Source of the DNA: an uncultured Mycoplasmatota bacterium
GTDB taxonomy: Bacteria > Bacillota_I > Bacilli_A > RF39 > UBA660
Length of the DNA: 41,279 nt
Reading direction: 5' to 3'
Assembly (NCBI GenBank): GCA_947646095.1
Contig: CANSFI010000015.1
Location: forward strand, 1-41,279
Of the stretch, positions 5,219 to 11,079 are shown in pieces (position 1 is the first letter of the stretch; the number at the start of each line of letters is the position of its first letter). A program made the translations under genes and the position numbers. The notes under the pieces were generated by a model. The model saw only the letters and a list, made by a program, of their open reading frames with translations, was not told the origin of the DNA and did no database searches.

Positions 5219-5329
5219 GTCTACATCACCATAAATATTATACCATATTTTAATTGGAATTTAGGTTTAGAGTGTAGTAAATAAGCCAAAAATATAGTAT
5301 AATCATATTAAGAAATTGCTTGGAGGTAT
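5219..5329. promoter_or_regulatory. divergent promoter region between two cargo operons
   Basis: + strand TATAAT in tagtataatcat; minus strand GGTATAATATT; lies between divergently oriented genes. Confidence 0.55.
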
Positions 5330-5983
5330 TTGATGAAAGTTATTAAGACTATAGATTTATGGACAGAACAACATGATAATCATTATGAATGCTTTAATGG
5401 AGCTTTTGTTGATGGATTTGAAGACAAAAAAATACCATTTAATGAGTACAAAATAATTAAGAATTGTAATTGTATAATAACTGTTAATAATCATGAAATT
5501 AATATTGATAATAAGCACAATGCAATAGTCTTTTATAAGGATAGTATACCTGTAAGACTAATGGTGATGAATAAAAATACTGATATTGATAAATGCATTT
5601 CTATAGCATTATCTCAGCGATTTAATGATTCGACTTTAAATGATTATTATGATAAAAATAATATAAAATTCAAAATGATTGATATGAACGAAGAACCAAT
5701 TTTCAAAGATACTGATAATACTAAATCTGAAAATGATGTTGGATCTTGCGATAGATGGAATTTATTATATTGTATGTTAAAAGGCAGTTATACTGAAAGT
5801 GATACTTCTTATGGTAATTTCCAAAGTGATAGATATGAGTTTATTCCAGATATATTTATAAAATATGAATTAACAACTGATACTGAAAAGTTTGAGATTG
5901 AACATAAATGCGCATTTATCAATACTATAAAAACTAGATTAATTCCTATACAAGAAAACTCTTCATTAACCAAACAAGGGTAG
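5330..5983 (+). CDS. hypothetical protein, first gene of HEPN/phosphotransferase operon
   Basis: 217-aa ORF with TTGGAGG RBS; the next gene starts 13 nt downstream. Confidence 0.65.
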   Translation: MMKVIKTIDLWTEQHDNHYECFNGAFVDGFEDKKIPFNEYKIIKNCNCIITVNNHEINIDNKHNAIVFYKDSIPVRLMVMNKNTDIDKCISIALSQRFNDSTLNDYYDKNNIKFKMIDMNEEPIFKDTDNTKSENDVGSCDRWNLLYCMLKGSYTESDTSYGNFQSDRYEFIPDIFIKYELTTDTEKFEIEHKCAFINTIKTRLIPIQENSSLTKQG

Positions 5984-5996
5984 ATTGGAGTAGAAT

Positions 5997-6449
5997 ATGA
6001 ATATAAATGATGACTTTATAGAAATTTGTAAATATGCTCATGGATGGAACTGGGTACCAGATTTGGATATTGTGCAAAAAATATATAATACATATCCTGA
6101 ATCATATTCCGTTTTAACCCCATTTGCTTATACATATTTAGAAGAACTAATTCGTTCCACTACTTCTGAATATGGAATGGAATTATTAGATGAAAATGGA
6201 AATCCTAAATATAGAAGAACTGGTAAAAAACTAATTAAATTAGCAAAAAAGGAAAATAAAAATAAAATCGAATATATTTCATTATTAAATGAATTAGAGC
6301 ATTATTTTGATGATTCAAGTACTTTCGATAGAGGAGACAATAGAAATAGTGTTAATCACGGATATATGCATCCTAGATTTTGGACAAAAGAATCTTTTGA
6401 ACAATTAATCCATGATATAGCTAGAATATCAAAATTTGCAGGATTTTAA
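5997..6449 (+). CDS. HEPN-domain-like protein (putative RNase)
   Basis: 150-aa mainly helical ORF with C-terminal DNRNSVNHGYMH, i.e. R-N-x3-H as in HEPN nucleases. Confidence 0.55.
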   Translation: MNINDDFIEICKYAHGWNWVPDLDIVQKIYNTYPESYSVLTPFAYTYLEELIRSTTSEYGMELLDENGNPKYRRTGKKLIKLAKKENKNKIEYISLLNELEHYFDDSSTFDRGDNRNSVNHGYMHPRFWTKESFEQLIHDIARISKFAGF

Positions 6450-6482
6450 ATAATAATTAATTAGAAAGTGAGATGATTAAAT

Positions 6483-7484
6483 ATGGAGACATTTGAATTA
6501 CAGGATTTCAATAAAAGGATTGGTCTAAATACTGATTTAAAAAATATTTCATTAGAAATATGCAAAAGATATGACTTAGGAGATTTTATTTCTAATGAAT
6601 TAATAGAGATAGGATATGAAGATTATAATTATTATTTAACTACATCTAGAGGTAAATATTGCGTAAAAATATTTAGTAAAGCTAGAACAAGCGAAGATGT
6701 TAATAACTATTTAGAAAGAATAAGAGCTGTAGCAAATAGTAATATTAATGCTCCTAAACCTTTATTAATAAATGGTGATATAAACTTATCTTTAGAATAT
6801 CAACAAAATAATTATGAAATATGTGTTTTTGAATATATTGATGGAAAGAACTTTTTTCAATTACAAGAAAATCCTAGTATAGATACTATAAAAGAGCTTG
6901 CAAAACAAACTTCTATGATTAATAATTTAGATATAGAACCTAATTTTATTTACGATTCTTGGGCAATTATAAATTTTGAAGAAGAATATAATAAAAAAAG
7001 AGAATATGTATCTTCAGAATATAAGGAACAATTTGATAGACTATTAGAAGAGTTAAGGAAAATTGATTTTGATCGTTTACCAAAAGCTTTTGTTCATGGT
7101 GATATAATTAGTACAAATGTTATGGTTGATAAAGATTCTAAAATATGGATTATTGATTTTGCTGTTTCAAATTATTTACTTAGAATAATCGATTTAGCTG
7201 TTATTTCTTGCAATATGTGTTTAGATAAGGATTCCAAAGAAAGAACTTATGAAAATATTTCTTTATTGCTAAGTGAATATAATAAGTACAATAAACTATC
7301 AGAATACGAATTAGAAACTTTTGGAACTTTCTATAAAGTTGCAAATGCTATGCATATTCTTCAAACTCAATATATAATAAAAACGGATGGTGATTCTGAA
7401 GAAAATCAATATTGGTTGAATGAAGGTATAATAGGAATGTCATATAGTGATTATGCAGAATTTCAAAAAGGATTAAAATTATAA
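6483..7484 (+). CDS. aminoglycoside phosphotransferase (APH)/choline-kinase-family protein
   Basis: FVHGDIISTNVMVDKDSKIWIIDF matches the HGDxxxxN...IDF catalytic loop; 333 aa. Confidence 0.85.
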   Translation: METFELQDFNKRIGLNTDLKNISLEICKRYDLGDFISNELIEIGYEDYNYYLTTSRGKYCVKIFSKARTSEDVNNYLERIRAVANSNINAPKPLLINGDINLSLEYQQNNYEICVFEYIDGKNFFQLQENPSIDTIKELAKQTSMINNLDIEPNFIYDSWAIINFEEEYNKKREYVSSEYKEQFDRLLEELRKIDFDRLPKAFVHGDIISTNVMVDKDSKIWIIDFAVSNYLLRIIDLAVISCNMCLDKDSKERTYENISLLLSEYNKYNKLSEYELETFGTFYKVANAMHILQTQYIIKTDGDSEENQYWLNEGIIGMSYSDYAEFQKGLKL

Positions 7485-7522
7485 AAGATGATAAAGAGCA
7501 TCAACGCTCAATATCATCTTTT
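7483..7522. terminator. bidirectional intrinsic terminator
   Basis: AAAAGATGATA...GAGC...GCTC...TATCATCTTTT inverted repeat at the convergent ends of 6483-7484(+) and 7501-8883(-). Confidence 0.75.
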
Positions 7523-8883
7523 TCTATTATAAATTTATTTTTATTATTTGTATTTTTGTTATCTTGAAGAATGTTGAAATCTTCTTCATCTAAAGCTCCA
7601 TACTCATATAATTCCGTAGCAAATTCCATATATTTTTCCTTATCTTTATTTCTATAAATTCTATCCATAAGAAATTTAACGAGATTGTAAATTAAATTTT
7701 TAAGATGTTCAAGTGCAGATTTTAGTGAATGATTTTCTTCTTTTAAATCATTAATTTCATTATCTTTTGACTTGATTTTTTTATTTAAATTATCAACCTC
7801 AGAATTGAGTTCTTCATTGTTTTTCAATAATAATCTAATTCGATCACGATTGTTAAGAAGTTCACTTTCCACTTCTTTTATTGTAACAGATAATTCTTGA
7901 ATGTTTTGGTATTCTGCAATAGTTCTATCAACTAAATCAAAAAAAACAATAGCTTTATCTCTATCAACTACATCTAAGACTAATTGACTTTTAATTAAAC
8001 CTTTTGACTTTAAATTTTCAAGCATATCTCTAATTTCTTTTGTACTATTTTTTAAATTATCAGTTTTGTCTTTTGCTTTATTTAATGTGTTTTGATGTAT
8101 TTCAAGAGATTTTTTCATCTTTTGATAATTTCCCATTTCTGAAATATGATAATCACGATTTCGACCTTTTAATTTAGATTTTAACTTATAATTAGTGTGA
8201 TACTCTTTATTGAAAGATTCCATACAATGAACTCTCATTTTGTCTTGAATTTTTGTTAAAGATTCTTTAGTAAAGACATTAGACTTTCCAACTTGTTTAG
8301 ACATACCATACTTATTTTTAGATTTAATTGGAACTCCAATTATATGAAGATGTGGACTTGTTTCATCATAATGAATTATAGCACTTGCTATCTTAAAATC
8401 AGGAACTAATTTTTCTAAATCTTTAACTTGTTCTTCAAACACATTAGTCATTTTCTTTTTATAGCCCATATCTTTTGTACTCCAAAATTCCATATCGCCA
8501 AGTTCAATAATTATCTCACAAGCTAAATCCTTTTTTGTGTTATTACTAACATGAGTGAAATAATCTTTTATCTTTCTATCATCACGAATTTGTCTATTAT
8601 TATATTCGATTCTTGCTTCTTCAAACTCATCCTTATATAATTTTTTAACATCATTTACGATTGAATTAGTTCCTATAATAATTTCAATATCATATTCTCC
8701 GTCATCATACTTTCTACAATTATGATTATCACATTTTGATAATCCTGCTGCATTTTGGATAGCATTATTACTATTAGATGTTGTACCACTTAAATTAGAT
8801 TTTGCACTTGCTTTACTACTATTTTTCTTATTTTTATCATTACTTAAATGAAAAGAATAACCTAAACTAGGTATATAAATCAC
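7501..8883 (-). CDS. mobV: MobV/Pre-type relaxase (plasmid recombination enzyme)
   Basis: IIHYDETSPHLHIIGVPIK (HxDExxPHxH metal-binding motif), C-terminal coiled-coil; GTG start, TGA stop. Confidence 0.88.
   Translation of the reverse strand: MIYIPSLGYSFHLSNDKNKKNSSKASAKSNLSGTTSNSNNAIQNAAGLSKCDNHNCRKYDDGEYDIEIIIGTNSIVNDVKKLYKDEFEEARIEYNNRQIRDDRKIKDYFTHVSNNTKKDLACEIIIELGDMEFWSTKDMGYKKKMTNVFEEQVKDLEKLVPDFKIASAIIHYDETSPHLHIIGVPIKSKNKYGMSKQVGKSNVFTKESLTKIQDKMRVHCMESFNKEYHTNYKLKSKLKGRNRDYHISEMGNYQKMKKSLEIHQNTLNKAKDKTDNLKNSTKEIRDMLENLKSKGLIKSQLVLDVVDRDKAIVFFDLVDRTIAEYQNIQELSVTIKEVESELLNNRDRIRLLLKNNEELNSEVDNLNKKIKSKDNEINDLKEENHSLKSALEHLKNLIYNLVKFLMDRIYRNKDKEKYMEFATELYEYGALDEEDFNILQDNKNTNNKNKFIIEKDDIER

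Positions 8884-9003: not shown

Positions 9004-11079
<2,076 letters not shown>

Follow-up and report, generated by a model that had tools for sequence, protein, structure and literature searches.

A putative HEPN effector on mobile elements of Firmicutes, encoded between an orphan protein and an APH-fold phosphotransferase

Within a stretch of 41,279 nucleotides from an uncultured Mycoplasmatota bacterium (the window), three adjacent genes encode an orphan protein (P1), a HEPN-like protein (P2) and a phosphotransferase (P3). Our preferred reading, to which we assign a probability of about 60%, is that P2 is a stand-alone HEPN effector carried as cargo by mobile elements of Firmicutes, with P3 a separate kinase and P1 an orphan. 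The initial annotation had combined all three into one system, in which the kinase modifies P2 or its RNA target and so serves as the antitoxin, with P1 as the sensor. A conserved P1–P2–P3 system is rejected here because relatives of these proteins were never found together; the kinase and P1 look like chance neighbours of P2.

Gene layout and mobile surroundings

The three closely packed genes described at the outset are present on one strand, separated by 13 nt (P1–P2) and 33 nt (P2–P3), and the bidirectional terminator placed after P3 was recovered as a stable hairpin flanked by T-runs on both strands, beyond which lies the convergent Mob_Pre gene (Table 1). The open reading frame of P1 was retained with a revised start, the ATG at 5333 behind a GGAGG fitting better than the TTG at 5330, so that the protein comprises 216 rather than 217 residues. 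The divergent gap upstream of P1 was also found, but not the promoter attributed to it: the TATAAT in this gap has no good −35 box and a promoter consensus scan of the window listed none there. Since the terminator scan called none inside the run, P1, P2 and P3 may share a transcript, an arrangement that would be compatible with joint function in this one element.

The presence of two large serine recombinases and TnpV nearby, in addition to the Mob_Pre relaxase, places the cassette in a mobilizable region, as previously proposed, and the host of the mobile element is a gut-type Firmicute. The combination of TnpV, two large serine recombinases and Mob_Pre looks like that of Tn4451/Tn4453-type elements, and the left end of this putative element reaches the contig edge. 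The 484-residue protein encoded divergently from P1, with its weak similarity to the nuclease-related NERD domain, is possible defence cargo.

Table 1. Features of the three-gene run and its surroundings (positions in the window)
Feature	Position	Strand	Basis
TnpV	167-520	same as both large serine recombinases	
Second large serine recombinase	786-2576	same as the recombinase at 9004-11055	
484-residue protein, divergent from P1	3764-5218	-	weak NERD match (E 3e-4), weak PADLOC PDC-S01 match
Divergent intergenic gap	5219-5332		TATAAT at 5298-5303 (+)
P1, 216 residues, first of the run	5333-5983	+	ORF; GGAGG at 5322-5326 upstream
P2, 150 residues, HEPN-like, predicted RNase	5997-6449	+	ORF; E49-x3-R53 and R116-N-x3-H121
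R-x4-H codons (G-D-N-R-N-S-V-N-H, P2 residues 113-121)	6333-6359	+	sequence; alignment
P3, 333 residues, APH-fold phosphotransferase, ThrB_alt-like	6483-7484	+	ORF; Pfam APH
Bidirectional hairpin terminator, P3/relaxase boundary	7483-7522	both	-17.2 kcal/mol, z -6.6
Mob_Pre relaxase	7501-8883	-	PF01076, E 2e-17
Large serine recombinase of the element	9004-11055	-	PF00239, PF07508, PF13408

Sequence motifs and predicted fold of P2

HEPN domains are recognized by Rx4–6H and Ex3[KR] motifs (PMC3710099). P2 carries DNRNSVNHGYMH, in which the initial annotation had correctly read an R-N-x3-H signature, formed by R116 and H121. Both residues are invariant in an alignment of nine P2 sequences, with asparagine following the arginine throughout, and E49-x3-R53 is invariant in the same sequences; the P2 family thus displays R-x4-6-H with a polar residue after the arginine, and P2 has E-x3-[KR] in an earlier helix. 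An invariant E-x3-[KR] followed by an invariant R-[NDH]-x3-5-H occurred in 0.09% of alignment-column shuffles, which puts the R-x4-H of P2 beyond chance. The AlphaFold model is all-helical with a mean pLDDT of 83; E49 lies within helix 34–53 and the R-x4-H between helices 91–104 and 131–147, in a loop modelled with the lowest confidence (pLDDT 42). A fold search of the PDB gave weak matches (E ≥ 3.7) with HEPN structures at ranks 1 (2hsb), 3 and 4 (human sacsin HEPN, 3o10) and Csx28 in seventh place. The motifs, the helical model and these fold matches support the HEPN reading first suggested for the 150-residue protein, and P2 is likely a HEPN protein, for which a metal-independent RNase activity through R116 and H121 is predicted.

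P2 resembles the HEPN superfamily RNases (PMC3710099) in its R-N-x3-H and E-x3-R motifs, its predicted all-helical structure and its mobile-element or defence surroundings, but differs from them in having no family match in Pfam, NCBIfam or PADLOC and in the weakness of its fold match; HEPN family models likewise gave no match to P2 by sequence. Its family, probably of HEPN type, is uncatalogued and occurs on mobile elements. AbiD/AbiF (Abi_2) proteins are similarly stand-alone HEPN proteins of prophages and transposons with a comparable R-N-x3-H, but unlike P2 they are about 300 residues long and have a profile of their own. Membership of P2 in Abi_2 was rejected, as there was no Pfam match and hhalign showed no relation (probability 0.1%, no better than shuffles). 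A relation to DUF4209 was also discarded (E 0.19 only; DUF4209 in 1 of 60 genomes), and the best BFVD match, A0A2P0ZLD4 (329 residues, E 6.5e-3), was not used as an identification because it has no name in the tables. An Abi_2 gene does occur elsewhere in the window's own genome (L036, C8:1433–1999) and in 20 of 70 genomes of the class.

Relatives and neighbours of the three proteins

Ten relatives of P2 were identified, a small sample with several near-identical members, at eight genome loci and on two viral contigs (L017 and L018); L002 and L016 are one gene, from the same bacterial family as the window, and L003–L009 are from Firmicute genomes. Nine P2 loci, the window included, were compared all-versus-all with four kinase loci, the near-duplicates L005 and L018 being left out of this comparison and read separately. 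Apart from P2 itself, the P2 loci have in common only integrase-type genes (L008/L016) and a Mob_Pre relaxase, the latter in four of them. An unrelated 342-residue gene overlaps the start of P2 in the Mob_Pre element of L004, L005 and L009, while the L016 element, with Mob and a tyrosine integrase, has P2 among AbiEii, AAA_13 and type I restriction–modification (R-M) genes. Elsewhere, one P2 relative belongs to a type IV secretion operon (L006), another follows an HNH gene (L007), a third lies 20 nt downstream of a gene encoding two transmembrane segments, as judged by eye (L003), and in L017/L018 P2 is part of a prophage with a terminase; in L017 a terminator-like hairpin stands between P2 and the preceding gene. 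In L008 (5001–7248, Flavonifractor sp. An112), P2 is preceded by a hairpin with a T-run and stands directly upstream of a reverse transcriptase (Drt6 E 4e-117, Drt4 E 2e-105). The genes upstream of P2 are mutually unrelated in the all-versus-all comparison, and these scattered settings indicate that P2 travels alone or with changing neighbours.

Copies of P2 truncated by frameshifts occur in L009 (4971–5291) and L018 (5941–6363) alongside the near-identical intact copies of L004 and L017, respectively. This would fit a gene that is costly or dispensable, an assembly error also being possible. A search of the collection for phages that share the L017 region yet lack P2 gave no match.

The association of P2 with relaxases in four loci, and of one copy with a type IV secretion operon, might suggest a regulator of element transfer, either helical and HEPN-like or unrelated to HEPN, rather than an active RNase, and the low fold scores would fit such a protein. 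This is improbable, given that R and H are invariant at HEPN spacing together with E-x3-R and that P2 is also found in a prophage and by a defence-type reverse transcriptase with no transfer genes near.

The neighbourhood search recommended in the initial annotation bears directly on the proposed three-gene system, and its outcome is the one that the annotation had named as refuting that system. Neither the kinase nor P1 adjoins any of the ten P2 relatives, and neither P1 nor P2 adjoins any of the four kinase relatives, within the stretches read; the conserved linkage to a HEPN-modifying enzyme that characterizes MNT-HEPN pairs was not found. Modifying-enzyme antitoxins have been proposed for HEPN toxins in the case of MNT (PMC3710099), the run is operon-like with no internal terminator found and the catalytic residues of P3 are kept, but this lack of linkage and the proximity of P3 to small-molecule kinases make a kinase antitoxin with P1 as sensor highly improbable. 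As in MNT-HEPN pairs, the HEPN gene comes second in an operon-like run; unlike them, there is no nucleotidyltransferase, and the kinase is downstream and not conserved with P2.

The phosphotransferase loop of P3 (HGDIISTN...IIDF) is complete, as originally reported, and its catalytic residues HGDxxxxN...DF are invariant in five sequences. With 79.3 bits against Pfam APH (cut-off 23.2, E 5e-22), P3 belongs to the APH superfamily by both score and catalytic loop. Its nearest solved structures are a homoserine kinase (2ppq) and an amicoumacin kinase (6sui), and it shares with ThrB_alt/APH-fold kinases the full HGDxxxxN...IDF core and a weak match over nearly the full length. However, assignment as a ThrB_alt homoserine kinase was rejected, since its scores lie far under the cut-offs (84.7 against 271 bits for homoserine kinase; 84.2 against 255.9 bits for the NCBIfam equivalog). 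P3-type kinases were found in five of 193 genomes of the family, the window's own genome counted, and the four relatives (G159 and G186 at 75–77% identity; G646 and G658 at 46–50%) have ordinary genes as neighbours, such as a deaminase and, as named by eye, pyridoxal-kinase-like and YbaK-like genes. P3 is probably a small-molecule kinase of homoserine-kinase-like type that was captured by the element, and its position beside P2 is probably due to chance. The YbaK/ProX-looking gene lies near the P3-type kinase in two genomes, at L015 (8153–8695) and at L048 (5034–5582), the two copies being 58% identical, and offers a lead to a metabolic role of this kinase.

P1 has no family match and no believable relatives in plasmids, phages, IMG/VR, 247 genomes of the class or 295 genomes of the phylum. 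Two matches at E 0.005–0.007 per genome are at chance level for the number of genomes searched. Assignment of P1 as an AraC effector-binding domain was rejected, the one 39-residue match (E 0.007 per genome, 295 genomes) likewise being at chance level. The single-sequence structure model of P1 (pLDDT 39) was not usable.

P1 could nevertheless be a partner of P2. A local toxin–antitoxin or sensor–effector pair, in which P1, made first, would bind P2 and restrain or trigger it while other copies of P2 are served by other upstream genes, has a small but appreciable chance of being correct. The ribosome site of P2 follows directly on the P1 stop, 13 nt separating the two genes, and another gene on the same strand lies immediately upstream of P2 in L003, in L004, L005 and L009 and in L007; this slot is where MNT-HEPN pairs have their antitoxin gene (PMC3710099). 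Against a pair, the P2 gene of L016, L008 and L017 either lacks a coding neighbour close upstream or is separated from it by a terminator-like hairpin, and the upstream genes are unrelated to one another. Another reading, which we consider unlikely, would make P2 a 'plug-in' HEPN effector with changing partners: from one mobile element to the next, its domain would join unrelated proteins, encoded upstream or downstream, that serve as sensors or antitoxins; candidate partners would be P1, the two-transmembrane protein, the 342-residue protein, the HNH protein and the DRT-type reverse transcriptase.

Restraint of P2 by a small RNA (type III), in the manner of the C. difficile HEPN toxin AbiF, is very unlikely. 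HEPN abortive-infection proteins with RNA antitoxins are known (PMC12373285), and the hairpin and T-run ahead of P2 in L008 could be taken for such an element. AbiF has an RNA antitoxin, but none was seen for P2: an Rfam search of the region returned tRNAs only, and no upstream sequence shared between P2 loci was seen. In the window only 13 nt are available upstream of P2, which moreover has no profile similarity to Abi_2.

Proposed role of P2

The reading of P2 as a stand-alone effector envisages a Firmicute cargo gene of mobilizable and conjugative elements and of prophages, the product of which would act once a phage or competing element is sensed. Cleavage of RNA through R116 and H121 may then lead to growth arrest or abortive infection, which would shield the population, or the element that carries the gene, against the rival phage or element; alternatively, P2 may help to retain its carrier element in the cell. 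The neighbouring AbiEii and type I R-M genes (L016) and DRT-type reverse transcriptase (L008) favour a defence role.

The close spacing of P1, P2 and P3 illustrates that such spacing is by itself no proof of a functional system. The analysis adds what is probably an uncatalogued HEPN family, which in Firmicutes occupies mobile elements of several kinds and lies near defence genes, and makes P2 a candidate for phage defence or for competition between elements.
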